A stretch of DNA of 64,000 bases. Origin: Bacteroidota bacterium. Lineage in GTDB: Bacteria > Bacteroidota > Bacteroidia > 2-12-FULL-35-15. The translations under genes were made by a program, and so were the position numbers. Every line of letters starts with the position of its first letter. Position 1 is the first letter of the stretch. The DNA lies in the NCBI GenBank assembly GCA_025963715.1, contig JAOQAG010000049.1, positions 62,001 through 126,000 on the forward strand, in the 5' to 3' direction. The notes under the pieces were generated by a model that did not search any database, was not told where the DNA came from, and worked only from the letters and a program-made list of their open reading frames with translations. Below, in pieces: positions 16,017-24,545 of this stretch.

Positions 16017-16169
16017 AGTTCATTGGTTCAATCGTTTATCGGTTCATTAGTGTGTTGTGTGTGAGTTACCCGTGATGTGTAAATCCCCAACTGCGAACTC
16101 TGCACTTCCTCCGCGTTCTTTGCGGTTAAACATACACAGCACAGGAAACACCACCAATAAACAAGTGAA

Positions 16170-17447
16170 CTATTGAACCAATGAACTAATTTTATTCTGC
16201 AACAACCGTTGTTCCGTTTTCGATTGCGTTAACGCAGCAGCTTTTTCAAAATGTTTTTTTGCTATTGCCGGATCATTTAATTTCAGATAAATTTCGCCAA
16301 GCAAGCTATAATACAAATAATACGATTCCAGTTTATTTTTATTTTCAATAGCTTCCAATTCCTTCAAAGCAACTGCTGCACCCTGCAACTGAAAAACAAT
16401 AATAATCCTGTTTAATTCCGTTACGGGTGTGGATGCAATCCTGCACAGCCATTGATAATAAGACAATATTTTGTGCCAGTTGGTTTTTTCAAAACTTGGT
16501 GCAATGCAATGCTCAAAGGCAATGCCTGCCTGCAGGTGATACGTGCTGATCGCGTTGCCGAATGCCGCTTTGTCCATAAAATTACTTCCCTCCGTGATCA
16601 GCGCGCGGTTCCACTTATTGCGGTCCTGCATTGGGAGTAAAATAATTTCTCCTTCGTCGTTTAGGCGGCTTTCACTGCGGGATGCATGAAAACACATCAG
16701 CGCCATCAATGCAAATACTTCCGGTAATTGTGTGTGCTCATTATCGGCTAATAGTTTGCAAAGGATCACCGATTCTTCGATCACATCTTTCCGGATCAGC
16801 TCTTCCGAATTAGTGGAATTGTAACCTTCGTTAAAAATCAGGTAGATCGAATTCAGCACCGCGTTCGTTCGCTTTTTTATTTCATCCACATTCGGGATCG
16901 TCAGTTGGATCTTATTTTCCCGAAAAAATTCTTTGGTACGGTATAAACGTTTCGAAACAGTATCCTCCGAAGTCAGGAATGCTTTTGCAATTTCCGCCGT
17001 GCTGAATCCGCAAAGCGTTTTTAAAATAAGTGTGATCTGGTTTTCTTCCGAAAGCTCCGGATGGCAGCAGGCAAACATCATCCGCAACTGATCGTCTTTG
17101 ATCAGGTTTTCTTCAAACAGTTGATTTACGGTAGTTTCTACGGTGTAACCCGATTGCAGTAAAGGTTGTGTGATTTCATCACCGAACAGCACATTGCTTT
17201 TTTGCTTTTTGATCAGGTTGAGCGCCTTATTTTTGGCAACAATGAACAACCATGCTTCGGCATCTTTGGGTATGCCTTTTAATTTCCATTGTTCGAGAGC
17301 GGTCAGCAGCGTGTCCTGCACCACATCTTCGGCCAGCGCAATGTTATGCGATCCGAAGATCCGCGTAAGAACAGCCACCATCTTTCCCGCCTGGTGACGG
17401 AAAAGATGGCTGACTGTATTTTCTATTTCAGGGTTTTGATCCGGCAT
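16170..17447 (-). CDS. ECF sigma factor with C-terminal TPR-like extension (ECF42/SigI type)
   Basis: A 425-residue sigma factor, far longer than a plain ECF. Sigma region 2 is at about residues 20-80 (ALAEDVVQDTLLTALEQW), region 4 at about 120-170 (GFSTAEIAKAFLTSEDTVSKRLYRTKE split across), then a roughly 230-residue helical DUF6596/TPR-like extension. This layout defines the ECF42-type group, which is genetically linked to DGPF/YCII proteins, and such a gene sits two genes upstream (17953) in the same direction. Only 18 bases separate it from the VOC gene. A repeated block upstream of VOC and YCII may be its target promoter. Confidence 0.92.
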   Translation of the reverse strand: MPDQNPEIENTVSHLFRHQAGKMVAVLTRIFGSHNIALAEDVVQDTLLTALEQWKLKGIPKDAEAWLFIVAKNKALNLIKKQKSNVLFGDEITQPLLQSGYTVETTVNQLFEENLIKDDQLRMMFACCHPELSEENQITLILKTLCGFSTAEIAKAFLTSEDTVSKRLYRTKEFFRENKIQLTIPNVDEIKKRTNAVLNSIYLIFNEGYNSTNSEELIRKDVIEESVILCKLLADNEHTQLPEVFALMALMCFHASRSESRLNDEGEIILLPMQDRNKWNRALITEGSNFMDKAAFGNAISTYHLQAGIAFEHCIAPSFEKTNWHKILSYYQWLCRIASTPVTELNRIIIVFQLQGAAVALKELEAIENKNKLESYYLYYSLLGEIYLKLNDPAIAKKHFEKAAALTQSKTEQRLLQNKISSLVQ

Positions 17448-17465: not shown

Positions 17466-17846
17466 TTATTTATTGGAATGCATCCCCACTTTGTTCCCTT
17501 CACTGTCAATAAAAAATCCCATGTAACCGGTTTCGTCATTGATGTGCATTTTCGGCATGGCTACTTTTCCGCCAGCTTTTTCTACGTTACCCAATGCAAC
17601 GGATAGATCCGGATTTGCGTTCAGATAGATCACAGCACCTTCTACACTTGGTTTGTGCATGTTGCTTTGTACAAGTGCGCCACCTACTTTGCTGCTCATA
17701 TCTGCAGGGAAAAATGCCATGTGCATGCCCATCATTTCCTGTACTTCCATTTTAATTCCGAATACTTCTTCGTAGAATTTTTTTGCTCTGTTAATGTCGC
17801 TTACTGCGATCTCAAACCAGTTTAATGCGTTTACTTTGTCGTTCAT
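17466..17846 (-). CDS. VOC family (glyoxalase-like) protein
   Basis: A 126-residue vicinal oxygen chelate fold protein with two beta-alpha-beta-beta-beta modules: WFEIAVSDINRAKKFYEEVFG at the start and GYMGFFIDSEGNKVGMHS at the end. Possible metal ligands are Glu and His residues in these modules. Function may be in glyoxalase-type or antibiotic-binding chemistry; not assignable. It is between the YCII gene and the sigma gene, with which it likely shares a transcript. Confidence 0.9.
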   Translation of the reverse strand: MNDKVNALNWFEIAVSDINRAKKFYEEVFGIKMEVQEMMGMHMAFFPADMSSKVGGALVQSNMHKPSVEGAVIYLNANPDLSVALGNVEKAGGKVAMPKMHINDETGYMGFFIDSEGNKVGMHSNK

Positions 17847-17895: not shown

Positions 17896-17929
17896 ACTAA
17901 AGACAATCGGGTTTCCCGGATTTGGACAA
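17896..17929 (-). promoter_or_regulatory. 34-bp block before VOC gene, copy 1 of a putative ECF promoter
   Basis: Read on the minus strand it begins TTGTCCAAATCCGGGAAA and continues to GATTGTCTTTAGT. It matches 18334-18367 at 32 of 34 positions. Its position 50 bases before the VOC ATG and the second copy 25 bases before YCII suggest a shared promoter, perhaps read by the neighbouring ECF sigma factor. Confidence 0.55.
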
Positions 17930-17952
17930 TTTTTTTAAATTTATTTTAAAAA

Positions 17953-18309
17953 TTAGTAATGATCGTCCATTACGCCGGTTTCACGCACTTCTACAGTGCC
18001 GCTTTCCAGCTCCAGGTTAGGGCAGGCTTCGGAGATTTTTACGGCTGCGTCAAAATTTGCAGCTTTTACCAACACATAGCCGCCCAAAATTTCTTTGCCT
18101 TCTATGAACGGGCCGTCGGTTAATTTTTTAGATGTACCGCTTAGCACACGGCCTTCATTGGTAAGTGGCTGTGCCCCAACTAAATTACCGCTTTGCGCGA
18201 TGCCGCCAATCCACTCTGTCCAGCGTTTCATGTGCGCTTCAATTTGTTGCGGCGAAAATTGTTTGCGCTCCGCATCGCCGCCGCGGAATAATAATAAATA
18301 CTCTTTCAT
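17953..18309 (-). CDS. YCII/DGPF-domain protein
   Basis: A 118-residue ferredoxin-like-fold YCII-related protein. The family-naming DGPF motif is present at residues 65-68 in KKLTDGPFIEGKE. The start is MKEYLLLFRGG, typical of this family. The molecular activity of DGPF proteins is not settled; they are genomic partners of ECF42-type sigma factors, as here. The ATG at 18309 lies 25 bases downstream of a 34-bp block shared with the VOC gene. Confidence 0.92.
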   Translation of the reverse strand: MKEYLLLFRGGDAERKQFSPQQIEAHMKRWTEWIGGIAQSGNLVGAQPLTNEGRVLSGTSKKLTDGPFIEGKEILGGYVLVKAANFDAAVKISEACPNLELESGTVEVRETGVMDDHY

Positions 18310-18333
18310 AATGATGGTTTTTAAGGTTTATGT

Positions 18334-18367
18334 ACTAAAGACAATCTGATTTCCCGGATTTGGACAA
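18334..18367 (-). promoter_or_regulatory. 34-bp block before YCII gene, copy 2 of a putative ECF promoter
   Basis: Differs from the copy at 17896-17929 at two positions only. The TTGTCC and TTGTC elements on the minus strand could serve as -35 and -10 parts. It is independent of the intergenic repeat families, since it is seen only at these two places. Confidence 0.55.
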
Positions 18368-18659
18368 AAGATAAAACTAATTTTTAACGTGTAGGTTTTC
18401 ATAATGTTAAAAAAGGATTTTACCGCAAAGAACGCGGAGGAAGCGCAGAGTTCGCAGAGAAGAATTACGAAATTAGGATAATCATATCAGGAAATCGTCA
18501 CCCCATCCGCCGCGGGGCGCGGGATGACAACTTTAAATGGATGAGAATAGTTTTTATGAAGATCCGCTTAATGCAGCTCATGCCACATTTATCCAGTATG
18601 GGTAGCTCACACACAGTAAACGAATGAACCAATAAACCGCTGAACCAATGACCAAAACA

Positions 18660-19525: not shown

Positions 19526-20467
19526 ATGAACCGGATCGATCGCGTAACCGCAATTTTAATTCACCTGCAATCACGAAGAGTAGTAAAAGCGCAGGACATT
19601 GCCGAAAGGTTTGAGGTCAGCCTGCGTACCGTGTACCGCGATATCAGAACACTGGAAGAAGCCGGAATCCCATTGGTAGGCGAGGCAGGCGTGGGTTATT
19701 CCATTATGGATGGTTATCGCTTACCGCCGGTAATGTTTACAAAAGAAGAAGCGGTTGCATTTTTAACAGCCGAAAAACTTGTAGAAAAATTTACCGATGT
19801 ATCTACCAAAGAAAGCTATTCTTCCGCGATGTATAAAATAAAATCGGTGTTACGCTCCAGCGAAAAAGAATACCTCGAAACCATGGACGATCACATCCAG
19901 GTGATCGGCAACGAATATTTGCCACTTGATAAAAATACTTCCAATCCTTTGCAAAGTATTTTAAAAAGCATTTCTGAAAAAAAAGTGCTCAGCATCGATT
20001 ATTTTGCAAACCACAGCCAGGAAAAAACAAAACGCAACATCGAGCCGGTAGGTATTTTTTATTTGGGAAATTACTGGCACCTCATTGCATTTTGTCAGCT
20101 GCGTAACGATTACCGCGATTTCCGTACCGATCGTATTTCGAAGATCGCTCCCACAGAGCTGCCGTTCCGGAAAGATCATCCATCTTTAAAAACGTATTTA
20201 AAACAGATCTCCAAAGAAAAAGAATTGCAAACGGTGATCATGACCGTCAATAAAAAAGTAATCCAGTACATCGGCGACCAGCGCTTTTACAATGGTTTTG
20301 TATCGGAGCGCGAATTGAAAGACACTATTGAAATGACTTTTTTAACTTCCTCCCTCGAAGGATTTGCACGCTGGTACCTCATGTTCGGTGATCAGGCCGA
20401 TATTGTCAGTCCCGAGATTCTCAAAAAACGGATCAGGGAGATTGCAACGCTTGTTGCTAAAAAGTAG
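19526..20467 (+). CDS. YafY-type regulator with HTH and WYL domains
   Basis: A 313-residue transcription factor. N-terminal DeoR-like winged helix-turn-helix at about residues 5-60 (VKAQDIAERFEVSLRTVYRD). The WYL ligand-binding domain is around 150-220, including EPVGIFYLGNYWHLIAFC and RDFRTDRIS. The WCX extension forms the C terminus. Ligands of this group in chromosomes are mostly unknown. It is divergent from fasciclin and precedes a DinB gene by 346 bases of repeats, so the target may be either or neither. Confidence 0.93.
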   Translation: MNRIDRVTAILIHLQSRRVVKAQDIAERFEVSLRTVYRDIRTLEEAGIPLVGEAGVGYSIMDGYRLPPVMFTKEEAVAFLTAEKLVEKFTDVSTKESYSSAMYKIKSVLRSSEKEYLETMDDHIQVIGNEYLPLDKNTSNPLQSILKSISEKKVLSIDYFANHSQEKTKRNIEPVGIFYLGNYWHLIAFCQLRNDYRDFRTDRISKIAPTELPFRKDHPSLKTYLKQISKEKELQTVIMTVNKKVIQYIGDQRFYNGFVSERELKDTIEMTFLTSSLEGFARWYLMFGDQADIVSPEILKKRIREIATLVAKK

Positions 20468-20813
20468 TTCAAAGTTTAATTTGGAAAGTTTAAAGTTTGC
20501 TGTACGGATAACGCCCGCCTGAACGATTCGGGCAGGAACAGGAACGAATATTGCGAATCTGTGTAGATGCTGTGCATGAATTGCCCGTGCCAGCTTATAT
20601 TTCCACTTCCTCTGCGTACTTTGCGCCTTCTCCGCGTTCTCTGCGGTTAGATCCATACAGAATGGTTTTCTCACACACAACAAACTTTGAACTTTCTAAC
20701 TTTAAACTTTAAACTTTTTTTCCCCCTGCTGACATACTGTTGTCACTCCGGGGTTGTTAGTTTGTATCAGATTTTAAAAACAAGCAAATTATAAACCCTA
20801 AATCTTTAAAACA
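20468..20813. repeat. Repeat-filled gap before dinB
   Basis: Contains 'aagtttaatttggaaagtttaaagtttg' (20470-20500), a family D run including GCCCGCCTGAACGATTCGGGC (a hairpin, about 20511-20531) and GAACAGGAACGAATATTGCG, a 'tctgcgtactttgcgccttctccgcg' fragment, and a second 'actttaaacttt' run near 20690-20717. No gene. Confidence 0.65.
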
Positions 20814-21311
20814 ATGACAATGATCGACACATTCCTGAAAGAAATGGAAGCAGAAGCACAAACCACCCGCAAAATGTTAGCACTTGTACCGGATGATAAA
20901 TTCGGCTGGAAACCGCACGAAAAAAGCATGGCCATAGAGCGCCTTGCAACACACATTGCCGAATTGCCAACCTGGGTAACCATGACGGTAAATACCAATG
21001 AGCTCGATTTTAATTCAAATGCATACGTTCCAAAAATTGTAAAAAACAACAAAGAGCTGATGCAGTTTTTTGAAGAATCACTGGCGGATGGAATTGCAAC
21101 ACTGAAAAAAACAAAAGATGATATTTTATCCGATCAATGGGTGCTGCGTAATGGCGATACCATTATAAGCAAACGCACAAAAGCAGAAGTTTTCCGTATG
21201 GCTTATTCGCAGATCATCCATCACCGTGCGCAAATGGGCGTTTTCCTGCGCCTGCTGAATGTTCCCATCCCGGGGAGTTACGGGCCGAGTGCAGATGACA
21301 TGGCATTTTAA
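20814..21311 (+). CDS. DinB family protein
   Basis: A 165-residue DinB-fold protein with the helix bundle pattern and candidate metal His in THIAELPTW (about residue 44) and IIHHRAQMGVFLRLL (about 130). The start MTMIDTFLKEMEAEA could also be the Met at 20820. C terminus GSYGPSADDM is common in this subgroup. No partner gene; reaction unknown. Confidence 0.88.
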   Translation: MTMIDTFLKEMEAEAQTTRKMLALVPDDKFGWKPHEKSMAIERLATHIAELPTWVTMTVNTNELDFNSNAYVPKIVKNNKELMQFFEESLADGIATLKKTKDDILSDQWVLRNGDTIISKRTKAEVFRMAYSQIIHHRAQMGVFLRLLNVPIPGSYGPSADDMAF

Positions 21312-23391: not shown

Positions 23392-23934
23392 ATGGGTTTG
23401 ACCGTTAAAGAAATACATGCAATGGATGCCGAACAGCTGCTGATCGAACAGATCGGGCAGGGAAACAAACAGGCATTTTCCAGGCTATATGACATATACG
23501 CGCCCGCACTGCTGGGAATGATCTCCCGGATGGGAAACGACGAACAAAAAGCAGAGCAGATCCTGCAGGCCACTTTCCTGAAAATAATAGGCTCGCTTAC
23601 AAAATATAATCCCACCGGCGAGCGTTTATTTACCCGGATGCTAAAAATAGCAAGAGTTTTGGCGGCAGGACCCGGTATGATTTCAGAGAATAAAGCAGTT
23701 CCGGAAATCCAACAGGTTGAACATCTCGTAAATGAAGCAGCTGAGGGACATTACTCATTGGAAAAGCAGCAAAAATCAGCTTCTTTTCCGGAACCGCATC
23801 AGCCATCAAACGCTTTGGACCTGGTTTATTTTAATGGTTATAGTTATGCCGCAACTGCGCAGCAATTAGGCATTTCAATGGCAGAATTAAAAATAAAGAT
23901 CAGGAAAGAGCTGAAACAAAGAAGAACACTATAA
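23392..23934 (+). CDS. Divergent ECF-type RNA polymerase sigma factor
   Basis: A 180-residue sigma-70-like protein. Region 2 resembles AFSRLYDIYAPALLGMISRM followed by AEQILQATFLKIIGSL, where the usual DVFQETF helix is altered. A linker with Gln/Glu-rich sequence follows, then region 4 with a helix-turn-helix YSYAATAQQLGISMAELKIK. The conserved region 2 residues are weak, so promoter recognition may be unusual. It is followed after 2 bases by an anti-sigma/cupin gene, the expected partner. An internal Met at 23422 is an alternative start. Confidence 0.82.
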   Translation: MGLTVKEIHAMDAEQLLIEQIGQGNKQAFSRLYDIYAPALLGMISRMGNDEQKAEQILQATFLKIIGSLTKYNPTGERLFTRMLKIARVLAAGPGMISENKAVPEIQQVEHLVNEAAEGHYSLEKQQKSASFPEPHQPSNALDLVYFNGYSYAATAQQLGISMAELKIKIRKELKQRRTL

Positions 23935-23936
23935 AA

Positions 23937-24545
23937 ATGAACATACAGGAATACATAGCTTCTGGAATACTGGAAATGTACGTATTGGGCGACGTGACAC
24001 CGGAAGAGGCTATGGAGGTTGAAAAATTAGCATCCGTCCACGAAGAGATCCGCACCGAAATTGACGAGATCAGCAATGCGCTGCAGCAATACGCCGCAGC
24101 GCAAACCGCTGCCCCACACCCGGCGATCAAGCCATTTTTGATCGCTACCATCGATTACATGGAACGCATGCAAAATGGCGAACAACCGGCATTTCCACCG
24201 GTGCTGAACACGGATTCGAAAATGGAGAATTACAGTCAATGGATTAACCGTCCGGACATGGTTATAGGTAGCGATTTTCAAGAAATGAAAGCAAAAATAA
24301 TCGGGTATACGCCGGAAGTGATAACAGCCATTGTTTGGATCAAAACCATGGCGCCGCATGAAGTACACGACAATGAATTTGAGAAATTTTTGATCCTGGA
24401 AGGCACTTGCGATATTATTTTCGGAGACAAAAAACATTCACTCAAAGCAGGCGATTATTTCAGCATTCCGCTGCACACCGAACATCATTTAATCGTCACT
24501 TCAAGCATTCCCTGCAAAGCAATTTTGCAACGGATCGCGGCGTAA
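23937..24545 (+). CDS. Anti-sigma factor with C-terminal cupin (ChrR-like)
   Basis: A 202-residue protein. Residues 1-75 form an anti-sigma-like helical domain (YIASGILEMYVLGDVTPEEA, then VHEEIRTEIDEI), lacking the Cys of zinc-type anti-sigma factors. Residues 105-202 are a cupin with candidate metal ligands in APHEVHDNEFEKFLILEG and PLHTEHH. This is the domain order of ChrR, which senses singlet oxygen through two metals. It starts 2 bases after the sigma stop. The stimulus here is unknown; loss of the N-terminal zinc site is the notable point. Confidence 0.88.
   Translation: MNIQEYIASGILEMYVLGDVTPEEAMEVEKLASVHEEIRTEIDEISNALQQYAAAQTAAPHPAIKPFLIATIDYMERMQNGEQPAFPPVLNTDSKMENYSQWINRPDMVIGSDFQEMKAKIIGYTPEVITAIVWIKTMAPHEVHDNEFEKFLILEGTCDIIFGDKKHSLKAGDYFSIPLHTEHHLIVTSSIPCKAILQRIAA

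Follow-up and report, generated by a model that had tools for sequence, protein, structure and literature searches.

Tandem blocks before the YCII and VOC genes of an ECF42-type cluster in Bacteroidota: candidate promoters of the cluster's own sigma factor

Two genes of a three-gene cluster in a Bacteroidota genome are preceded by nearly the same stretch of DNA, and the question raised by this locus is what reads the two copies. The cluster lies in a 64,000-nucleotide stretch of one contig, analysed as a whole and called the window. It is encoded on the minus strand in the order YCII, VOC, sigma: a YCII-domain protein of 118 aa (17953..18309; PF03795, E 2.3e-11), a VOC/glyoxalase-fold protein of 126 aa (17466..17846; PF00903, E 1.9e-08) and an ECF42-type sigma factor of 425 aa (16170..17447), whose gene begins 18 bases after VOC. 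The YCII (DGPF) gene is near the sigma gene, but the VOC gene sits between the two. YCII homologues (phmmer, E up to 1e-3) are present in 76 of 81 loci and VOC homologues in 15 of the 81. The sigma factor carries region 2 (PF04542) and region 4 (PF08281), both above cut-off, with no other sigma region, region 3 included, among the four families listed for it. It also contains DUF6596 (PF20239), at 109.6 bits against a cut-off of 27, and a weak TPR_2 match of 21.5 bits, below its cut-off of 27; it is the only PF20239 match in its own genome. The same features are given for ECF42 in excerpts of two papers (PMC8999054, PMC6180224). A sequence-only reading of this DNA had named the VOC, YCII and ECF domains, and the names agree with the Pfam matches. 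Its ECF42 label appears sound in view of the domains, the YCII neighbour and the comparative evidence described below, the assignment being one of domain content and gene context rather than a formal ECF group score.

Candidate promoter P1 (18333..18367, minus strand; TTGTCCAAATCCGGGAAATCAGATTGTCTTTAGTA) stands before YCII, and candidate promoter P2 (17895..17929, minus strand; TTGTCCAAATCCGGGAAACCCGATTGTCTTTAGTA) before VOC. P1 has a putative -35 element TTGTCC at 18362-18367 and a putative -10 element TTGTC at 18340-18344; in P2 the same elements lie at 17924-17929 and 17902-17906, and in both the gap between TGTC and GTC is 20 nt. Transcripts would start near 18331 and 17893, respectively, positions placed by the published sigmaH numbering in an excerpt of PMC6411747. 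The likeness of the two copies stretches over 49 nt at 90%. The 35-nt pattern (one N), with up to three mismatches, finds only P1 (0 mismatches) and P2 (1 mismatch) in the window, and nothing in 100 shuffles of it. A 28-nt core with up to three mismatches likewise finds only these two in the 4,911,018 bases (51 contigs) of the genome, the reversed control giving 0. A two-mismatch pattern matches 20 places in the genome vs 32 in the reversed control, which is background. The sequence-only reading had proposed a search for the block before other genes and took its presence before many unrelated genes as a counter-sign. No such spread is seen: the two perfect sites in the genome are both at the sigma cluster, and the sigma factor looks local and self-regulating. 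The sole one-mismatch match (L086), 92 bases before a 100-aa frame, was taken as chance. A looser third site (L240) is probably chance as well (reversed control 1); it falls within a frame of the opposite strand that was read as a response regulator. Elsewhere between genes, look-alike stretches at 16104-16131, 18420-18460 and 20607-20650 are, by eye, variants of CCGCAAAGAACGCGGAGGAAGCGCAGAG and may belong to a dispersed intergenic repeat family.

The two copies in the window are unusually alike: 15 of the 17 spacer bases agree, and in the six relatives that share the two-site arrangement only 6-8 do. This would suit a chance or mobile repeat without function, recently copied. The relatives decide otherwise. 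The window and loci L004, L005, L006, L040, L072 and L109 form one clade (SH-aLRT 100), and all seven members have two promoter-like sites, one before YCII and one before VOC, with T before GTC. Because both sites are present in all seven while the spacers have diverged in six, the pair must be old and the near-identity of the spacers apparently recent, and a functionless repeat is extremely improbable. The long near-identical block, spacer included, seems peculiar to the window's genome and points to recent homogenisation, perhaps by gene conversion. The match of 32 in 34 bases and the position before the VOC and YCII genes, both claimed earlier, are borne out by the sequence, the coordinates and the Pfam matches. 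The 34-bp block as a unit is not: what is conserved is a pair of short half-sites with a constant 20 nt between them.

Within the genus, PF20239 occurs in 6 of 36 genomes, own included. A clade pattern matches one of the 36, the window's own, and misses the same-genus locus L109 (GTGTCC). The congeners L110-L113 carry a different ECF42-type subgroup, and one of them, L111, has by eye a site whose gap is 19 nt, with CGTT. Across the phylum a tight pattern matches three of 395 genomes (own, G054 and G371) and its reversed control 4, so that these matches are no better than background; G054 and G371 are not among the 63 genomes with PF20239, and the other 62 PF20239 genomes have no match.

The half-sites and their spacing recur far more widely. 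The scan covered as much as 3.5 kb ahead of the sigma gene in 86 loci: the window, five loci from congeners, and the best 80 among 181 confirmed relatives. TGTCC...[C/T]GTC, its TGTC and GTC separated by exactly 20 nt, is found in 57 of them, vs a single locus when the reverse strand is read and 1.4 on average in shuffles. Other gaps (10 to 31) give 0-6 loci, the highest value, 6, being that of gap 21 (five Chitinophaga loci and L021). Gap 20 or 21 is present in 63 of the 86; in the other 23, among them the four congeners L110-L113, no strict site at either gap was found. A second sample, 60 of the 74 non-own PF20239 matches, was picked through the Pfam family, without regard to resemblance to the window, and its proteins have a best identity of 74.8% to any first-sample protein. 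Here the 20-nt gap occurs in 15 of 60 loci (other gaps 0-3, reverse strand 1), the strict site at that gap being absent in 45. A third sample of 60 loci omitted G708 and G642 (near a contig end), G739, three loci below cut-off and genomes already used; 14 of its loci duplicated an earlier protein at 95% identity or more and were dropped, and 46 were kept. The first two samples were unthinned, the first holding two pairs at least 95% identical and the second none.

Looser patterns recovered many loci that lack the strict site. At gaps 19-21 the looser pattern finds no site in 9 of 27 loci with Asp and 3 of 26 with Asn at sigma position 77 in the second sample, and in 4 of 25 and 7 of 13, respectively, in the third. 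Among 134 gap-20 sites, a flanking T, the third -10 base and a T two bases after it are kept (0.9-1.7 bits), and the spacer reaches at most 1.0 bit, at its A/T-rich start, and is mostly below 0.6; TGTCC, GT and the preceding base are fixed by site selection in this set and so are not informative there. A gap of 19 between TGTC and GT was seen in L136, L157 and L168, and a gap of 21 in L133, L159, L177, L191, L203, L211, L216, L218, L230, L233 and L235.

This distribution bears on whether another sigma factor, either the housekeeping one or a second ECF factor encoded in the window at 23392-23934, reads the blocks. Such a gene is at hand, but across three samples the motif goes with ECF42-type loci, and the start of the -35 and the spacing agree with the ECF42 promoter motifs printed in an excerpt of PMC6180224. 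An E. coli-type sigma-70 scan, which covers that promoter type, gives 6 sites in the window vs 6.1 in shuffles, none within the blocks. Recognition by another sigma factor is very unlikely. Downstream of the second ECF gene comes one that matches an anti-sigma factor weakly, below the curated cut-off (23392-24545 for the two).

A further link to the cluster's own factor comes from one base. The window has TTGTC at its -10, not the commoner CGTC type (TCGTC), a change from C to T before GT. In the clade, residue 77 of the sigma factor, in region 2.4 (codon 17217..17219, minus strand), is Asn in 7 of 7, vs Asp in 55 of 55 aligned C-type loci; residue 80 is Lys in 7 of 7 vs Arg in 55 of 55. In the second sample, T-type loci have Asn (4/4) and aligned C-type loci Asp (10/10). 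A relaxed scan of 146 loci, in which the -10 was X-GT-N at 35-130 nt before an open frame, placed gap-20 sites in 103. Scored as residue 77 and base, these are 81 D-C, 34 N-T, one D-A and no D-T or N-C, with four further sites at another residue or an alignment gap. Gaps outside 19-21 give 2 to 33 loci and no residue pattern; most are at 27-29 (13, 14 and 33 loci), which probably stems from GT bases that follow the -10. The D-A site (L026; TGTCCGTCATTAGGG) is probably misread, its supposed -35 holding an apparent CGTCAT -10 element.

The D-C and N-T prediction was set down before the third sample was taken, and it held in the loci there that have sites, 7 of the 13 Asn loci having none. Gap-20 sites, found in 19 of the 46 loci, are 12 D-C, 7 N-T, one T-G (a Thr77 locus with G) and one unaligned-C, with no D-T or N-C among them. 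Gap 21 gives 8 D-C, and gap 19 gives 3 D-C, one D-T and one T-T. The D-T exception precedes the sigma gene of L229 by 2.9 kb, and that locus has a D-C site at gap 20 too. Among single sites as far as 1-3 kb from their sigma gene some may be chance, both those that fit the pairing and those that do not. Altogether 122 loci show a single gap-20 base: 82 D-C, 33 N-T, one D-A and six with another residue or an alignment gap. In the 116 with Asp or Asn, position 77 is the best predictor of the base (normalised information 1.00; next column 0.72; columns with more than 60 rows). No sigma column explains the third -10 base, GTC vs GTT, nearly as well (best 0.47). GTT replaces GTC in about half of the Asn77 loci (15 of 27).

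Shared descent limits how far this goes. The tree needs six changes for the residue and six for the base, L111 being left out of the two larger trees because of its truncated frame. Independent pairs number four on supported branches (six on all branches), and the four are concordant, with a sign test p of 0.125 that is not significant alone. With just four supported independent switches, it is likely that this one residue sets the base upstream of the -10 GT, Asp77 going with C and Asn77 with T, and that sigma factor and promoters have changed in step on several occasions inside a single ECF group.

The tracking of a sigma residue by a promoter base also bears on the reading of the blocks as an operator of a classical repressor or activator, such as the nearby WYL-domain regulator. 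Duplicated intergenic blocks before co-oriented genes are also typical of operators. Here, however, the half-sites have the same orientation and a rigid 20-nt gap, and they accompany the sigma factor in distant loci; the DinB-family neighbour of the WYL gene has beside it a different sequence, an inverted repeat. An operator in place of a sigma promoter is highly improbable. The inverted repeat, TGACATACTGTTGTCA at 20730-20745, lies after the WYL-domain regulator gene (19526-20467) and before the DinB-family gene (20814-21311), and is a candidate operator of the WYL regulator. Its spaced pattern also turns up in 10 of 100 shuffled sequences, but the genome has no second copy of the full 16-mer even when one mismatch is allowed, and of 240 loci one (L134) has it.

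We therefore return to the cluster's own factor, and consider it very probable, from sequence comparison, that both blocks are ECF-type promoters, arranged in tandem and read in a feedback loop by the sigma factor which their own cluster encodes. Sigma region 4 would read TGTCC at the -35, and region 2 TTGT(C) at the -10, at a fixed spacing from it. P1 would drive YCII-VOC-sigma and P2 VOC-sigma, so that the sigma factor would feed back positively on its own cluster. The loop may be gated by the C-terminal DUF6596/TPR extension, possibly via the YCII protein; gating by this extension has been proposed for ECF42 (excerpt of PMC8999054). The change of Asp77 to Asn in region 2.4 goes with that of C to T in the -10. 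Both main proposals of the sequence-only reading, an ECF promoter with TTGTCC and TTGTC at a promoter-like spacing and a sigma factor acting on its own cluster, gain support from the comparative evidence, and both probably hold.

Known structures suggest how residue 77 could act. It aligns with Asp79 of M. tuberculosis sigmaL and Asn84 of E. coli sigmaE (phmmer alignment, positions counted by hand). In sigmaH, Asn92 bonds the template C of an adjacent G:C pair (Li et al. 2019, excerpt of PMC6411747), and by our reading this is probably the same motif position. An Asp accepting a bond from cytosine, and an Asn pairing with the adenine opposite thymine, would fit the C/T rule. The rule may hold in the ECF42 setting only, since sigmaE and sigmaH carry Asn there. 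If true, it would account for the C in the C-G preference that precedes many ECF -10 elements (Lin et al.). The general problem of how the base just before the -10 GT is recognised by ECF factors then becomes a one-residue, one-base question with natural examples on both sides, and ECF42-type sigma factors of Bacteroidota and relatives gain a concrete candidate promoter.

Much of the setting is already known. Earlier work describes ECF42 factors, the YCII gene beside them and TGTC/GTC promoters (excerpts of PMC8999054 and PMC6180224). No title or abstract among those listed in a literature search deals with ECF42 promoters in Bacteroidota; the most relevant papers (Casas-Pastor 2021, Todor 2020, Liu 2018 and Wu 2019) may already describe the motif. 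The ECF42 factors of Streptomyces venezuelae, in a different phylum from the window's, reportedly have the motif TGTCGA and CGA/TC. Like the window's factor, they have a C-terminal TPR extension and a YCII neighbour (Liu 2018, via an excerpt of PMC8999054). Todor 2020 studied 91,552 potential ECF promoters and found a few amino acid-base pairs; in that general specificity code, as proposed here, amino acid-base pairs determine promoter specificity, and its list may already contain the pair of Asp/Asn with C/T (via an excerpt of PMC11588781). The closest comparison is with RpoE10, an ECF42 factor of Sinorhizobium meliloti, as given in an excerpt of PMC6180224. Its own YCII gene was not raised on RpoE10 overexpression, which counts against the autoregulation reading; the motif at that gene overlaps the transcript start, and one target operon is on another replicon. 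The three printed motifs, TGTCGG...CGTC, continue the -35 with GG and have CGTC at the -10, whereas the window has TGTCC and TTGTC. As in the window, all three have TGTC at the -35, GTC at the -10 and, counted by eye, a 20-nt gap; a YCII gene lies upstream of the sigma gene, and glyoxalase-like proteins are among the targets.
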